A stretch of 22,183 bases of DNA from a virus, in IMG/VR virus record IMGVR_UViG_3300044591_000539, positions 1 through 22,183 of that record. One strand, given 5' to 3'. Made by a program: the position numbers and the translations under genes. The notes beneath the pieces were generated by a model. That model saw only the letters and a program-made list of their open reading frames with translations. It was not told where the DNA came from and did no database searches. This document shows positions 1,939 to 19,383 of the stretch, piece by piece; the first letter of the stretch is position 1, and each line of letters begins with the position of its first letter.

Positions 1939-3765
1939 ATGACAATCCTTCAAGGCATCGAGCACCTGTCCACGCTCGATGATGCTTCATTCGTCGCGTT
2001 TGACGTCGAGACCACTGGGCTCCAGCCGAAGTTCGGTGGTCTTCGTCTTTTGCAGTTGGCGACCTTCGGTAAGCCTCCAGTAGTGCTGGATTGCTGGAGC
2101 TTCAGTGATGAAGACTGGATCACGCTTGAAGAGTTCTGTAGCGTTCCAAGGCAATGGCTGGCGCACAACGCGGTGTTTGATCTCGGATGGCTGCAGGAGC
2201 ACGAGATCTATCCCGAGGGCAAGGTCTACTGTTCGATGCTGGCCAGTCGGATCCTGACGAACGGGCTGCCGAACCTAAAGCACGGGCTCCAGCACGTTGT
2301 CCATCGCTACCTTGGCCAAGACATTTCTAAGGAAGAGCAGCGGAGCGATTGGTCGGGTGATTTGCGTGTGGAGCAGATCGAATATGCGGCCAAGGATGTG
2401 GTGGTGTTGACTGAGCTGTGGGAGCCAATCACGAAGCGGATGGCGACTGGTGCGTTAATGCCAGCGTGGGAGCTTGAGTGCAAGGCGCTCCCGGCAATGG
2501 CGCAGCTTTGGCGTACTGGGTTGCCATTCAATAAAAAGATGCTGGAGCAGCTGATTGAAGATCTCGATATTGAAAATGTTGAGGTCGGTGAGAAGTTCAT
2601 TGAAGATTTCGATACAGCACTTCCGCCAGAACACAAGCTCCATCGGGGGCTTGACGGGAAGTTGTTGTACCAGACAAAGCCGGGTCCGAAAGGTAAGAAG
2701 CCGGACCCGAATGTTTTTAACCTCAATAGTCCGGCGCAATTACTTAAAAAGTTCACCGCTTTGTTGGGTGAGCCGCCGATGGATATGAAGAACGGAAAGC
2801 CAAGTGCTAGCCGTTCTGCCCTCCAAGAATATGTGGGTGATCACAAGGTTGTGGCCGATTATTTGCGGTGGAAGAAAGTAGAAAAGCGGCGGCAGATGGC
2901 AGAAACTTTGTTGAAAAATTATTCGCCTGATGGGTTTATTCGTGCCAGTTATTTGCAGCTTGGGGCTGATACTGGGCGTATGTCATGTATTTCACCAAAT
3001 CTCCAGCAGATTCCGCGTGATCCGCGCTTTCGCTTGGCGGTTCAAGCTCCAGCTGGTTGGAAACTGGTTGTGGCGGATTACGGACAGATGGAGCTTCGCC
3101 TGGCAGCCGCAGAAGCACAGGATGACTTAATGACTCAGGTATTCCAGCAGGGACAGGACCTCCATACGATGACGGCGACGCAGATTTATGGGGTTGAGCC
3201 GGATGAGGTTACGAAGGAACAGCGGCAAATCGCAAAATCCGCCAATTTCGGCCTTTTGTACGGAAGTGGCGCAAAAGGACTCAGAAATTACGCAGCAGCA
3301 ACAGGAATTCAGATGGATCTTGATGAGGCGGCGGAGGTGCGGCAAAAGTTCCACGCTGCATATAAAGGCATCTCCAAATGGCAGCAGCAAAATGCTCGCG
3401 CTGCTGATGCGGCTAAGGACAATCCATCTATCCGCATACGCATCTCGGGCTTGCGGCGGTTTCTACCGGGTGAGCACAACAAACTCACAACCCGTTGCAA
3501 CACCCCCATCCAAGGAGCTGGTGCAGCAGTCCTCAAACTTACGCTCGGCAAACTGTGGCCGCTACTCCACGCCGACGGGGAGGACGTGGTGCGTTTGGCC
3601 GGCGTGGTGCATGACGAGATCATCCTGCTCGTAAAGGAAGAACACGCAGACACCTGGGCGCTCCAGCTGCAAACCGTGATGGAGGAAGCTGAAGCTCGTT
3701 GGTTGGGTGATATTCCGCCGCTTGCTGAAGCTAAGGTCGGGGATAGCTGGCAAGAGGCCAAGTGA
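1939..3765 (+). CDS. polA: Family A DNA polymerase with 3'-5' exonuclease domain
   Basis: This 608-aa replicative DNA polymerase has a DEDDy proofreading exonuclease (residues about 15-165) followed by a Pol I-type polymerase domain (about 170-605). Exonuclease residues are D22 and E24 (FDVET), D81 (HNAVFDLGW) and Y149/D153 (YAAKD). Polymerase motif A is VVADYGQMELR (D380), with Gly and Met where DYSQIELR is usual. Motif B is RQIAKSANFGLLYG (R429, K433, F437). Motif C is VVHDE (D559). No 5'-3' exonuclease domain is present, as in T7-type phage enzymes. Phe437 corresponds to E. coli Phe762. The start follows a 25-nt gap with an inverted repeat, and the stop overlaps the GTG of the next small gene. 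Confidence 0.95.
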   Translation: MTILQGIEHLSTLDDASFVAFDVETTGLQPKFGGLRLLQLATFGKPPVVLDCWSFSDEDWITLEEFCSVPRQWLAHNAVFDLGWLQEHEIYPEGKVYCSMLASRILTNGLPNLKHGLQHVVHRYLGQDISKEEQRSDWSGDLRVEQIEYAAKDVVVLTELWEPITKRMATGALMPAWELECKALPAMAQLWRTGLPFNKKMLEQLIEDLDIENVEVGEKFIEDFDTALPPEHKLHRGLDGKLLYQTKPGPKGKKPDPNVFNLNSPAQLLKKFTALLGEPPMDMKNGKPSASRSALQEYVGDHKVVADYLRWKKVEKRRQMAETLLKNYSPDGFIRASYLQLGADTGRMSCISPNLQQIPRDPRFRLAVQAPAGWKLVVADYGQMELRLAAAEAQDDLMTQVFQQGQDLHTMTATQIYGVEPDEVTKEQRQIAKSANFGLLYGSGAKGLRNYAAATGIQMDLDEAAEVRQKFHAAYKGISKWQQQNARAADAAKDNPSIRIRISGLRRFLPGEHNKLTTRCNTPIQGAGAAVLKLTLGKLWPLLHADGEDVVRLAGVVHDEIILLVKEEHADTWALQLQTVMEEAEARWLGDIPPLAEAKVGDSWQEAK

Positions 3766-5441: not shown

Positions 5442-6569
5442 CTAGTTTTTGCGAATTCGCATGAACCACCCTGTGTCGTTACCTTCAATAAGCCAGCGGG
5501 GGAGCCAGTTTTTACGAGAGTACGCGATGTTGGCGCCGCCCTTGTTGCTGATATAACCACCATTGACAAGATCCGCCTCACCAAAGGGGTCCAAGTGTAT
5601 GAAGTGGGTTGGGGTGTAACCAGCTACGACGCTCCAATGTCCGGTACCGCCGGGATTTGAAACGTGGTTTTTATGTAACCAGCCGACGGGAACTGGATGG
5701 CCGTTAGCGATTTCAGTTTCTAAGTCCTCGACCGTTCCATCCATCTCGAAGGTGGCGGTCAGTCCCAGTGCTTTGAGGGCCGCAATTTGTGCTTTGGGGT
5801 CAGTGGTGTCGCCGAAACGAGCGCGTAAAGCGTTGTACTCATAATCTCCGTTCACTTTGCCGTAGTAGCGGGCCACCATTGCGCAGCTGGAGCTAAAGCA
5901 CTGACGCCAGCCCTTGGGGCCGTCATCCGATCCAAGCTGGTATTCGTATGGAACTTTCAGTAGTTTCTGGTTGGGTGGAACGACAGGTTTAGCTCCTGCG
6001 TGTTGCTCCATCAGCTGGATTAGCTTGCCGGGGTAGTTGGGATCTGTTGCATATTTCTCTTTGTACAACCACTTGGCAGCTTCTTCGCGGGTGGCGGCGT
6101 TGTTGCAACCTTTGTAGTTCTTGTAGTCCTTGTACCAGTGGTCTACAAGGTAGATGACGCAGGAAAGTAGATCTGGGAAGTCTATGAAGCTATCGGTGAT
6201 TGTGACCCACTGACCGTTAATAAACTCTTGTGTTTTCTTGTCGCTACCTTCACCTTTAAGGCCGAAAAAATTGTTTCTGCCAGAGACTAATTTGCCGTAA
6301 TTTGATTCGAGTGCCCATTGGGCGGCTACGAGTTCTGGAAATTTTGCGCCGGCGACGCGGGCGGCTTCCAAGATACCTTCCCAGCTGTTGGGGAACTGGG
6401 TTTGTTTGCCGGCAACGCTCCAGGTTTTGAACCAGCCTTGGTCGCGGCCCAGTATGTGCGGGTTGGCCTTGTTAATCGCCAGTTCCAGTTCAGTGAGGGC
6501 TGCCATCTGGTGCGGCAGCCCCTTGTAGAACCGGAATAGGTCGATCAATCGGATTGCGTTTTGCGCCAT
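5442..6569 (-). CDS. Endolysin: glucosaminidase plus C39-like peptidase
   Basis: This 375-aa protein is a two-domain peptidoglycan hydrolase. Residues about 60-190 form a glucosaminidase (FlgJ/LytG-like) domain, with likely catalytic Glu88 in AAQWALESNYGK and the NNFFGLKG motif (99-106). Residues about 204-370 form a peptidase C39-like domain: Cys224 in WRQCFSSSCAMVARYYG, His311 in GTGHWSVVAGY and Asp327 in FIHLDPFG make a plausible triad. The N-terminal 50 residues (LFRFYKGLPHQMAALTELE) form a short helical region of unknown use. No signal peptide is present, so export would depend on a holin. C39-like domains can cleave peptide cross-links, but the exact bond here is unknown. Confidence 0.88.
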   Translation of the reverse strand: MAQNAIRLIDLFRFYKGLPHQMAALTELELAINKANPHILGRDQGWFKTWSVAGKQTQFPNSWEGILEAARVAGAKFPELVAAQWALESNYGKLVSGRNNFFGLKGEGSDKKTQEFINGQWVTITDSFIDFPDLLSCVIYLVDHWYKDYKNYKGCNNAATREEAAKWLYKEKYATDPNYPGKLIQLMEQHAGAKPVVPPNQKLLKVPYEYQLGSDDGPKGWRQCFSSSCAMVARYYGKVNGDYEYNALRARFGDTTDPKAQIAALKALGLTATFEMDGTVEDLETEIANGHPVPVGWLHKNHVSNPGGTGHWSVVAGYTPTHFIHLDPFGEADLVNGGYISNKGGANIAYSRKNWLPRWLIEGNDTGWFMRIRKN

Positions 6570-15945: not shown

Positions 15946-16422
15946 TTAGCTACTGAGGGATAGCGGACCAAGGATGGTCCATGGTACTTTGCGCCAAGGG
16001 ATATCCCCGTCAATAGCATCTGCGTAAGGACGCGCTGTTACTGTAATTGTGGATATATCTGCTGTAGCCGAAACAGCATTGCCTTGAGCGACAGCAAACG
16101 GATTAAAAGATGTAGGGGCTTCTAGGTTTTCGGCTGCGGACCAGCGATACATAAGAACGTTAAGTGAGTAGCGGTTTGTTATACAGGCATCAACCAGATC
16201 TACGTTTTCGACTGTCGCAGGAAAGGTTATTGTGTAATCGTGGGATGTGCTATTTTTATCGGTTAAAAGATTGGATACCGAGAAAGATCTATAGTCATAT
16301 GTAAGAAAGCCATCGCTAGTGGGGTTGGGAAAGTAGTTTTGGAATAAGTACAGAGGATTTGTGCCTGGTGGTGTCAGATCGGGGTAAATAAGTAAAAAGC
16401 TTGCAATAGCGCGTACTGCCAT
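15946..16422 (-). CDS. Minor tail protein (158 aa)
   Basis: The product begins MAVRAIASFLLIYPDLTPPG and contains SFSVSNLLTDKNSTSHDYTI, TFPATVENVDLVDACITNRY and VLMYRWSAAENLEAPTSF. The hydrophobic DYTITFPATVENVDLVDA strand resembles DUF1833/gpL-type minor tail proteins found between tape measure and tail-tip genes in siphoviruses. No enzymatic motif is present. It abuts the tape measure gene with a 1-nt overlap and precedes the tip protein by 2 nt, so all three should be co-translated. Confidence 0.5.
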   Translation of the reverse strand: MAVRAIASFLLIYPDLTPPGTNPLYLFQNYFPNPTSDGFLTYDYRSFSVSNLLTDKNSTSHDYTITFPATVENVDLVDACITNRYSLNVLMYRWSAAENLEAPTSFNPFAVAQGNAVSATADISTITVTARPYADAIDGDIPWRKVPWTILGPLSLSS

Positions 16423-18794
16423 CAGCGTGCTCCGACGGAACGGCGGATGCCACCATTTTTACGCATAGCGGACAGGGCCATTTCAGCACCACGGCGGCTG
16501 GCAGCCTGCATACCAGCGACAAAATCGCGTTGGCTGACGTAGTTGCTGCCGTTCATGTTCATGACGGGGCCTGTGGTCACGTTAATCATGGGGTTGATGC
16601 TTGTCGAGCCCATGTCACCGCCGGGTGCTCCAGCAGTGTTGCCGCCTGGGATGACAGAATCGCCACGCTGACCGGATGCGTAGCGTGCCATGGCGGCGCT
16701 CATCTTGCTGGCGGGGATGACGTATTCGGACTCGCCACCTTCACCGATCACGGCATTAGTGGGTCCTGTGACGTAGCCGCCTTGGGCGTAGGCAGCTGGC
16801 GCGGGACCGGGATTGGCGCCTTGTCGGGCAGCATTAAGTCGCATTTGCTCGTTCACGGCCATGCGAATCTGGGATGCTGCGCTAGCGGCTTGGGCAGCTA
16901 CGTTGCTCATGGCCTGCGCCATGATGTATGTTTTTTCTGTACCTACTTCAATAACACCCACAATTTGCTGGGCCTGGTTTGTTGTAAGCAGAGCCTCTTC
17001 TTTCACAACACGCAGTGATTCAGAAAGCAGTCGAGCTTGTTCTTGACTCAGCCTTATTTCTTCGCTAACAAGCTTTTGCTGTAACGCGGTTTCAGCTGCA
17101 AGCAACTTTCCGCGTAACTGAGCTTCAGCTGTTTGCTTTTGATATTCGCCGATAAGTTTTTGCGCCTGTAATTGTTCCTGTACTTTTGTGATTGCCTGCC
17201 CGTTAGCGTCTACAGCTTCCTTCGTAGTGTCTTTGATTTGAGCAAGTAGAGCAGATCGCGTTTGTTCATCTTTTTGTGCGAGGGCAGCTAATTCAGCTTC
17301 TTTACCCCTTACAACAAGTTTATCGTTAAGAATTTGCAGCTCCTGTAGCTCAATCTGTAGCTTGCGCTCTGCTGCAGCGATGCTCTCTAGCTGCTGCTGG
17401 TACTCGATCTGTGCTGTTTGTACTGCATTATTAAACAGAGCAATAGCAATATCTAAGCGCTTTTGTTGTGTTGTGGCGAACTCGTAAGCTCGTTCCAGTC
17501 GTGTTTTGTCGAGATCGACAAGGGCTTTTTCGGCCTCGTAACGTGCATTGGCTACAGACAATCCTCTGTCTACAGAAGCTTGTTCAGCTTCTATACGTTT
17601 ACGTGATTCGTTAGTAAGCTCGGAGTAAGCCTCTTTTAACTCTTGAGCTAATTTTTTAGCTTGTTTTGAAATTTCTAGTAGTTTTTCTTCTTGTGTGAGT
17701 GTTTTAGTCCTTGTTGAGTATTCTTTTTCTTTTTCCGCGTTTATCTGGCGCTGCTGTTCCACGATCTTGCTGTTGAGTTCAAATACTTTTTGTGGGTCGC
17801 CTCCTGCAAAACCGGGCCTGTTCGCCTGCTCACGCTGTTTCACAAGGGATTGCTGGCGCGGATCTTGCGAGGTGAGACCTTGGCGTAGTAGAACGTTATA
17901 TTCGATAGCGGCAGTCAGGGCCTTAAGTATTCCAGAGCTGTTTATCAAGCTTGCGACACTCGCCTGCATTTGTGTCATAGCTTGCACAAATACCGAGCCT
18001 AGTTGTGCGCTGTCCTCACCAAAAGTTTTTAGTGCTTCTGTGCCGGATACGCCTACAAGTCTGTTTAATTCTTCTGTGGCTACAGCAAGAGCCTCTTGGG
18101 ACATTTTCAGTTCTTCTAGTTTTGTAATGTATTGACCTGCACTTGTAGTTACTCCGCCTAAAGCTGAAACAAGTACATCGAAGTCGGCGGTAACTGGATC
18201 TAAAGCTGCTCCAATCTTTCCGGCTCCAGAGACAAAGTTGTCAATGATTCCGCCGATGGCGCCTCCAAGGATCTGGCCGCCGAAGCCTGTGCCGACGAAA
18301 GAGCCAGCAAGAGAGCCAAGGACTTCTCCGGCGCCGCCTCCAAATAGCAGCGGGAAGCCAACACCAAGTGCAATATTTTCAAGGCGGCTACCTACTCCAC
18401 CTCCACCTTTACTAGCTGCAGGTGGCAATTTTGGTCCTTGAACACCTACACCAGCATTAGCTGTGGGGATGATTCGTCTTTGAGATACTTCAGCTTCTTT
18501 GATTAGTTTATTTAAGCGTTCTTGTACCGCTACTTGATTGCGTTTAGCTGCTACTAGATCTTGGACAGCTTTAAGTTCTTCCTGAGAGCCGATGGCTGCT
18601 TTATTGATATTTTGCCATGCTTTTTGTAGTTGTGCGTTGTATGTGTTTATGTTTTGGACATTAAACCCCTGCTCAATTTTCTTAGTGTTCAGTAAATCTA
18701 CTGTTTTGCTTACTTGGTTTAAGGACTTCTGCAGCGTGCCAAGTTGGCCAATGCCTACAACGCCTATTTGGATTTCTGCGCGGTAGGAGGCCAC
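16422..18794 (-). CDS. Tail tape measure protein
   Basis: The 790-aa product is helical and coiled-coil over most of its length (QVAVQERLNKLIKEAEVSQR, then about residues 300-620 rich in Gln/Glu/Lys/Ala). A Gly-rich hydrophobic segment lies near residues 129-197 (NIALGVGFPLLFGGG, VLGSLAGSFVGTGFGG), typical of tape measures that insert into the host membrane during ejection. The C-terminus has AYAQGGYVTGPTNAVIGEGG, SEYVIPASKM and MARYASGQ, common in this family. It determines tail length: at about 0.15 nm per residue it predicts a tail near 115-120 nm. The start is GTG (no in-frame ATG after the upstream stop) and no Shine-Dalgarno sequence is visible. Confidence 0.93.
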   Translation of the reverse strand: MASYRAEIQIGVVGIGQLGTLQKSLNQVSKTVDLLNTKKIEQGFNVQNINTYNAQLQKAWQNINKAAIGSQEELKAVQDLVAAKRNQVAVQERLNKLIKEAEVSQRRIIPTANAGVGVQGPKLPPAASKGGGGVGSRLENIALGVGFPLLFGGGAGEVLGSLAGSFVGTGFGGQILGGAIGGIIDNFVSGAGKIGAALDPVTADFDVLVSALGGVTTSAGQYITKLEELKMSQEALAVATEELNRLVGVSGTEALKTFGEDSAQLGSVFVQAMTQMQASVASLINSSGILKALTAAIEYNVLLRQGLTSQDPRQQSLVKQREQANRPGFAGGDPQKVFELNSKIVEQQRQINAEKEKEYSTRTKTLTQEEKLLEISKQAKKLAQELKEAYSELTNESRKRIEAEQASVDRGLSVANARYEAEKALVDLDKTRLERAYEFATTQQKRLDIAIALFNNAVQTAQIEYQQQLESIAAAERKLQIELQELQILNDKLVVRGKEAELAALAQKDEQTRSALLAQIKDTTKEAVDANGQAITKVQEQLQAQKLIGEYQKQTAEAQLRGKLLAAETALQQKLVSEEIRLSQEQARLLSESLRVVKEEALLTTNQAQQIVGVIEVGTEKTYIMAQAMSNVAAQAASAASQIRMAVNEQMRLNAARQGANPGPAPAAYAQGGYVTGPTNAVIGEGGESEYVIPASKMSAAMARYASGQRGDSVIPGGNTAGAPGGDMGSTSINPMINVTTGPVMNMNGSNYVSQRDFVAGMQAASRRGAEMALSAMRKNGGIRRSVGAR

Positions 18795-18836: not shown

Positions 18837-18856
18837 GCCGCCGGGTTAGCGGCGGC
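18837..18856 (-). other. GC hairpin at the end of the chaperone gene
   Basis: GCCGCC (18837-18842) and GGCGGC (18851-18856) form a 6-bp stem around the stop codon of the T-like reading frame, in the 51-nt gap before the tape measure GTG. On the minus strand it is followed by ATTTACC and not a T tract. It is a candidate for mRNA processing or for tuning tape measure translation rather than termination. Confidence 0.3.
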
Positions 18857-19067
18857 CGCGTTTGGCTTTTTCGTAGGCTTTGCGTTCCTCGTCGGCTTGG
18901 ATGCTGAAGTAGGCGTTCCAGCCAAGAATTTCCGTGTCGGTCATTCGGCTGCGCAGTTCGTTCAGCGTCACGCCCAGTTCCTTTGCCACGTAGAACTGGA
19001 GCATGAGGTAGCCATCCTTGCGGAGCTGGTCCTCAAGTGCTTTTGGTGTCCAGCTCCTCCGAATCAT
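18846..19067 (-). CDS. Tail assembly chaperone T-like frame (read by frameshift)
   Basis: Siphovirus tail chaperones are usually made as G and as a G-T fusion by ribosomal frameshifting. This frame overlaps the end of G and contains LEDQLRKDGYLMLQFYVAKE, LGVTLNELRSRMTDTEILGW and ERKAYEKAKRGRR, a helical, basic-tailed T-type domain. The frame has an ATG at 19067 but no Shine-Dalgarno sequence, and its first 9 codons run antiphase to G. More likely it is entered at the CCAAAAG of 19046-19040: a +1 slip (or -2) joins Lys114 of G to Ala at 19040, giving a 178-aa G-T protein. Such fusions scaffold tail tube assembly on the tape measure. Confidence 0.7.
   Translation of the reverse strand: MIRRSWTPKALEDQLRKDGYLMLQFYVAKELGVTLNELRSRMTDTEILGWNAYFSIQADEERKAYEKAKRGRR
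19022..19057 (-). other. Inverted repeat enclosing the slippery site
   Basis: Two perfect 8-bp arms, GGAGCTGG (minus, 19057-19050) and CCAGCTCC (19029-19022), are separated by 20 nt. The CCAAAAG slip site and the stop codon of G lie in or at the edge of that loop. A Shine-Dalgarno-like GGAGGAG ends 9 nt before the AAAA. Together these features suggest a programmed frameshift cassette between the G and T frames. Confidence 0.5.
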
Positions 19068-19383
19068 CGGTCAGGATCGCCAGCATCAAGGATTGGAGAT
19101 CTTTGTCCTTGACTTCGTTCTTCAAAATGTCGATTTCGCCGGGCTTGAACAGCTTGGCGCCGTTCTCGTCGCAAGCCTTGCTGATCAGGAGTTGCAGTGC
19201 GAAGGCGGTGGCATCGTCGGACTTGGCTTGCTTTTGGGCGCGTTCGCGCTCGGCCATCGTCAACGGGGTTACCCACATCTCGAATACAGATCCATCGCTA
19301 AGCTCCACTTCTTTTTTGGAGGGCTCCAGGTTGGCTGCTTTGCGCAGACGATCCAGGGCACTCATTGCAGTTGCGGCGGGCAT
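19033..19383 (-). CDS. Tail assembly chaperone G-like
   Basis: The 116-aa product has the usual gpG-type architecture: a short N-terminal helix (MSALDRLRKAANLEPSKKEV), a strand pair (VELSDGSVFEMWVTPLTMAE) and helices (ALQLLISKACDENG, FKPGEIDILKNEV, LQSLMLAILTD). It lies between the major tail protein and the tape measure, the canonical chaperone position, and overlaps the T-like frame by 35 nt. Met7 (19365) is an alternative start. It would bind the tape measure and recruit tube subunits during assembly. The terminator of the tail protein lies upstream, so transcription of this gene comes from readthrough or a promoter in 19384-19428. Confidence 0.75.
   Translation of the reverse strand: MPAATAMSALDRLRKAANLEPSKKEVELSDGSVFEMWVTPLTMAERERAQKQAKSDDATAFALQLLISKACDENGAKLFKPGEIDILKNEVKDKDLQSLMLAILTDDSEELDTKST

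Follow-up and report, generated by a model that had tools for sequence, protein, structure and literature searches.

A probable +1 ribosomal frameshift at AAA_AGC in the tail chaperone genes of a cyanophage-like virus

In phage lambda, the tail assembly chaperones gpG and gpGT are encoded in two overlapping frames with a short 3' T domain, and the tape-measure gene comes next (available text of PMC5009743). The locus described here has the same gene order and layout, and the two-product logic of lambda is presumed for it. Forward shifts in chaperone genes are also on record, as a +1 frameshift was reported for the tail chaperone gene of mycobacteriophage Karhdo (in the accessible part of PMC10793310), and a +1 chaperone frameshift was judged very likely in the haloarchaeal virus HSTV-2 (in the accessible part of PMC5009743). 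PRFect uses four identical bases ('four') as one of its two forward motifs and demands in addition that the +1 A-site codon be commoner than the zero-frame one, and its authors stated that a general forward motif was not yet identified (PMC10885494). From Karhdo, HSTV-2 and the PRFect motif it follows that +1 chaperone frameshifting as such is already known. According to one survey of prokaryotic frame transitions, orthologues keep the direction of their programmed frameshifts (PMC3711429).

The G/T overlap and its slip site

The DNA analysed, hereafter the window, is a 22,183-base IMG/VR virus fragment carrying the gene module on its minus strand. G (19383-19033, minus strand) encodes a zero-frame product of 116 aa, which was assigned as a tail assembly chaperone by profile matches to phrog_344 (tail assembly chaperone; E 8e-8) and phrog_20784 (E 2e-34) and by its AlphaFold (AF2) model (mean pLDDT 70.6), whose best PDB match was the HK97 tail assembly chaperone 2OB9 (E 3.9e-4, probability 1.00). 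A PDB sequence search using the G profile gave no significant match. The T frame (18846..19070, minus strand) is open from 19070 to a TAA stop at 18848-18846 and matches two tail protein profiles, phrog_337 (E 2.6e-5) and phrog_14766 (at 122-161 of the 224-position profile). The next gene after the overlap (16422..18794, minus strand) was assigned to a tape-measure protein by weak matches to phrog_10093 (E 1.6e-4) and phrog_167 (E 3.5e-4).

By profile match, G and T of relatives in other clades fall into the same families. The nearest named relatives were Cyanophage KBS-S-2A (62% in G), S-2L and the single-cell marine virus AG-345-A17, and KBS-S-2A and the other named relatives suggest a cyanobacterial host. 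By its sequence features the locus fits the tail chaperone G/GT class, with a chaperone-like G just before the tape-measure gene, a start-less conserved T domain in a second frame over the 3' end of G, and a conserved slippery site in the overlap (AAA_AG in 114/114 distinct +1 loci); as a member of this class it would make both products at a fixed ratio and require both to assemble tails. Elsewhere in the window, inspection by eye suggested a DNA polymerase-like gene on the plus strand (1939-3765) and, on the minus strand (5442-6569), a lysin-like gene that may include a peptidase part.

The last zero-frame codons of G are GAT GAT TCG GAG GAG CTG GAC ACC AAA AGC ACT TGA, and the TGA stop (19033..19035, minus strand) begins 9 nt downstream of the first base of the slip codon; a TGA stop in the T frame (19071..19073, minus strand) bounds the overlap on the 5' side. 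The slip site AAA_AGC (19039..19044, minus strand) comprises the P-site AAA (19044-19042) and the zero-frame A-site AGC (19041-19039), the re-paired AAA being 19043-19041 and the next +1-frame codon GCA at 19040-19038. Several elements of the original prediction can be read directly from the window sequence: the G and T frames are offset by +1 (equivalently -2), CCAAAAG (19046-19040) lies within the 20-nt loop of a perfect 8-bp inverted repeat, and GGAGGAG (19060-19054, minus strand) lies 9 nt 5' of AAAA. The part of T read after the shift starts at 19040 and encodes 64 aa (ALEDQLRKDGYLMLQFYVAKELG...RGRR), which with Lys114 gives the 178-aa fusion originally calculated. A viral protein in BFVD, D6PII1, has 179 residues, close to that length, and is 44% identical to G over the alignment; it may represent a G-T that is annotated or encoded in frame.

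A programmed +1 ribosomal frameshift, giving two tail assembly chaperones, G and a predicted G-T, is our preferred reading of this arrangement, with a probability of about 90%. The bulk of ribosomes would translate G and terminate at 19033, whereas in a minority the peptidyl-tRNA-Lys on AAA 19044-19042, with AGC waiting in the A site and the ribosome presumably paused by the purine tract, would slip one base forward onto the overlapping AAA 19043-19041. The shifted ribosome would then take GCA (Ala) and complete the fusion. Both products may act on the tape-measure and tail-tube proteins, by analogy with lambda.

Conservation of AAA_AG and the direction of the shift

Viral contigs and four phage records yielded 196 distinct G/T overlaps, in which T lay at +1 in 114, at -1 in 82 and in the same frame as G in none, as expected if the product ratio must be kept. 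An in-frame AAA_AG was present near the end of G in 114/114 +1 overlaps (AGC in 107, AGT in 5, AGG in 2), so that the slip site and frame offset recur in every one. These counts take related contigs as separate rows, and the invariance of AAA_AG over clades of differing base composition carries more weight than the total of 114. Loci of the window clade read ACC, AAC or CCC AAA AGC, those of a second set ATG AAA AG(C/T), and those of the AT-rich AG-345 clade TTR AAA AG(C/T/G). Within the window clade, the slip Lys was AAA in 43/43 and the next Ser AGC in 43/43, while all other conserved Lys positions of G mix AAA and AAG and the other conserved Ser positions also vary; GAC ACC AAA AGC is the minimum of synonymous divergence within G. 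In the AG-345 clade, AGC occupied 56/61 slip positions vs 52/386 Ser codons elsewhere in G.

The position of the stops narrows the point of shift. The stop of the T frame reaches the slip site in 71 of the 114 +1 loci, its last base being the first A of AAAA, and begins 9-45 nt ahead of the T-frame AAA in the remaining ones. The distance from the first base of the slip codon to the G stop is 6-27 nt, most often 9 nt (56 loci) or 6 nt (47 loci). AG-345-type loci, for example TTG AAA AGC TAA, have only those few bases common to both frames, and AAA_AG is thus the sole plausible shift point in the tightest loci. T could alternatively be made alone from an internal start, such as the ATG at 19067 or one downstream, if ribosomes initiate there or re-initiate after terminating on G. 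That ATG, considered as a T start with the original prediction, is present in the window but is not kept in relatives, and a T-frame start is lacking 5' of the slip site in 103/114 +1 loci. Some T-frame start precedes AKELG, the conserved T domain, in 39/114 loci; the other 75/114 have none, start positions are not conserved where present, and separate initiation would leave the conservation of AAA_AG unexplained. Given these 75 loci and the 71 with the stop on AAAA, AAA_AG must be where the shift takes place, and separate initiation of T is very unlikely and largely refuted by the relatives. The conserved overlaps, the T-frame stops at the slip and the absent T starts together support well the predicted +1 slip of tRNA-Lys from AAA to AAA.

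Frames alone cannot separate +1 from -2, which would reach the same final frame, and the Shine-Dalgarno (SD)-like tract stands at a spacing that usually favours backward movement. A -2 shift would, however, require tRNA-Lys to re-pair on CCA, ACA, TGA or TAA, depending on the relative, and would not account for AAAAG, which is invariant in relatives and required for +1 only. The +1 re-pairing is perfect, while the -2 re-pairing is poor and differs between relatives; therefore +1 is favoured and -2 is improbable. The two are predicted to differ at the junction, where +1 gives LDTK-ALEDQ with one Lys (peptide LDTKALEDQLR) and -2 gives LDTKKALEDQ with two (peptide LDTKKALEDQLR). Since the site is an A run, RNA polymerase slippage might also produce mixed mRNAs, but runs of 4-5 A fall below the n > 7 linked to transcriptional slippage (PMC3711429), and the G that follows would not be required, so that this explanation is hardly credible.

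The +1 slip at AAA_AG has a precedent in a yeast reporter, in which AAA-AGG-C shifted +1 at 1.2% vs 0.02-0.05% for AAA-ATT-C and AAA-CGT-C (PMC4627075); a rate of about 1% on such a sequence makes the AAA_AG site plausible. AGC is the commonest Ser codon in the window genes (25.9 per thousand; GCA, 24.7), and an account by a rare or hungry A-site codon, judged from phage codon use, therefore fails. Among long ORFs from the +1 loci, AAA_AGN occurred 266 times against 277 expected, which shows no avoidance, and thus the hexamer by itself cannot be strongly slippery. Taken together, these two results imply that context must matter or that the rate must be low.

The 82 overlaps with T at -1 mainly carried canonical heptamers (CCCAAAA in 27, CCCAAAG in 24, AAAAAAC in 21), whereas the window and 113 others, with T at +1, fall outside the canonical X_XXY_YYZ class. 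S-2L reads GAC CCA AAG with T at -1, and six loci (L126, L127, L130, L131, L137 and L140) end G with GAC CCC AAG AAC/AAT TAG, also at -1, without a canonical X_XXY_YYZ heptamer. One -1 overlap (L198) has GGGAAAG at its G end, the heptamer of the lambda G-T shift. In a tree of G and T built without the junction residues, a single clade of +1 loci was rejected (AU p 4e-8), and branches with good support require at least three direction changes among window- and KBS-type loci; cassette recombination would produce the same pattern. Some -1 loci (GAC CCA AAG CCC TAG) and the +1 loci reading GAC ACC AAA AGC NCT TGA have a Lys-Ala-Leu junction in common, which differs in other -1 loci. A net +2/-1 change beside the Lys codon would be enough to swap direction. 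The T frame is unannotated in KBS-S-2A (L002, NC_020854.1 34101-34305) and S-2L (L003, MW334946.1 29742-30015), both with a -1 overlap and a canonical heptamer, and hence G-T fusions in such phages are being missed.

Sequence elements around the slip site

The original prediction had set the slip site in the loop of a hairpin, with a 5' arm GGAGCTGG (19057-19050, minus strand) and a 3' arm CCAGCTCC (19029-19022, minus strand). If this stem drove the shift, it should persist in relatives, and it is indeed perfect in the window and L006, a perfect 8-bp stem of different composition occurs in L019 and L026, and the predicted fold of the window region is more stable than those of its shuffles (z -4.24). 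However, the arms paired perfectly in just 2/34 distinct arm pairs and made four or fewer Watson-Crick pairs in 17/34, and consensus folds of relatives contained no stem around the slip site. Pairing was slightly above shuffles (67.9% of cells vs 62.1%, with 5 pairs changed on both sides), a small excess that is inflated by the kinship of the loci. Moreover, the 5' arm would sit inside the ribosome during the slip, so the stem is expected to be open while the slip codon occupies the P site. The surrounding hairpin was accordingly rejected as a conserved stimulator, and that it drives the shift is quite unlikely. A distal 14-bp stem in the T coding region (18968-19006), which folds strongly in the window, was likewise rejected, as pairing in relatives equalled that of shuffles and no covariation was seen. 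The Rfam search of the window returned no match.

The purine tract GGAGGAG, an SD-like sequence that may stimulate the shift by pausing the ribosome, appears to be a more credible stimulator than the hairpin. Mean anti-SD energy at -20..-4 reached -7.85 for the window clade (control, -2.68) and -5.87 for the AG-345 clade, with controls at about -2.7. The tract is not invariant, with a 4-mer or better in 28/43 loci of the window clade. Nor is it direction-specific, as anti-SD energy is strong in the KBS-type -1 loci (-7.51) and the tract is absent from the CCCAAAR -1 clade (-2.74). Its core GGAGG stops 11 nt short of the slip codon, a distance typical of -1 but not of prfB-type +1 stimulation.

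A different 5' element, AAGAGGCTAAAGCCGA, was found in the AG-345 clade. Here the 12-nt block GAGGCTAAAGCC (GAG GCT AAA GCC) occupies -18 to -7, just 5' of TTR AAA AGC, and has zero synonymous change in 61 distinct loci (L204-L283 and L004), although GCC makes up just 18/495 Ala codons elsewhere in G of this clade. The block could be an SD-like tract or a GGC-UAAA-GCC mini-hairpin. An upstream hairpin was reported to stimulate +1 and restrain -1 frameshifting, with 70S ribosomes included (PMC6321510), and this precedent may serve as a lead for the AG-345 element.

As a whole, the earlier interpretation holds for the +1 slip on AAA, is not supported for the role of the hairpin loop and gains some support for GGAGGAG as a stimulator; in the alignment of homologues that it proposed, AAAA is kept and the hairpin arms are not.

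Comparison with known systems

A search of titles and abstracts on cyanophage tail-gene frameshifts gave no description of this site. Compared with lambda, which shifts -1, the window shifts +1 on AAA_AGC in the preferred reading. HK97 2OB9 is the best fold match of the G model, but with 17% identity over the alignment and a TM-score of only 0.46-0.49. Karhdo and HSTV-2 resemble the window in the +1 direction of a chaperone-gene shift (accessible parts of PMC10793310 and PMC5009743). The AAAA of the window fits the PRFect motif 'four'; with GCA less frequent than AGC, PRFect would probably pass over the site.

Other +1 shifts in phage structural genes, those of SPP1 gp17.1* (CCCUAA; PMC6316719) and Listeria phage PSA (available text of PMC5009743), use a Pro codon and concern capsid or tail-tube genes, unlike the chaperone gene of the window. 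In the prfB-type shift, the slip codon is followed by an A-site stop codon and has an SD about 3 nt upstream, whereas the window has AGC in the A site and a purine tract ending 9 nt before AAAA; with no conserved stem near the slip site, it is also unlike hairpin-stimulated frameshifts. The yeast reporter has in common with the window the P-site AAA and an A-site codon beginning with AG, but it involves a eukaryotic ribosome, an artificial context and a rare Arg codon (PMC4627075).

What is new is the AAA_AG motif with its broad conservation, the recurrent switching of orthologues between directions, and the AG-345 5' element. We tentatively propose, as a possibility somewhat short of even odds, that AAA_AG(C), assisted from its 5' side by SD-like pairing or, for the AG-345 clade, by a short GGC-UAAA-GCC hairpin located behind the ribosome, may be an undescribed bacterial +1 signal that needs no A-site stop, phage-rare codon or 3' structure, and that swaps with -1 heptamers through a net +2/-1 change beside the Lys codon. 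Judged from sequence, the signal looks real and switchable, and this cyanophage-like virus probably makes its long chaperone by a +1 shift at AAA_AGC. The G/T chaperone family thereby offers a clean forward motif in phages of very different base composition, with -1 orthologues alongside, and lets one ask why the same Lys tRNA moves forward in one member and backward in a close relative.
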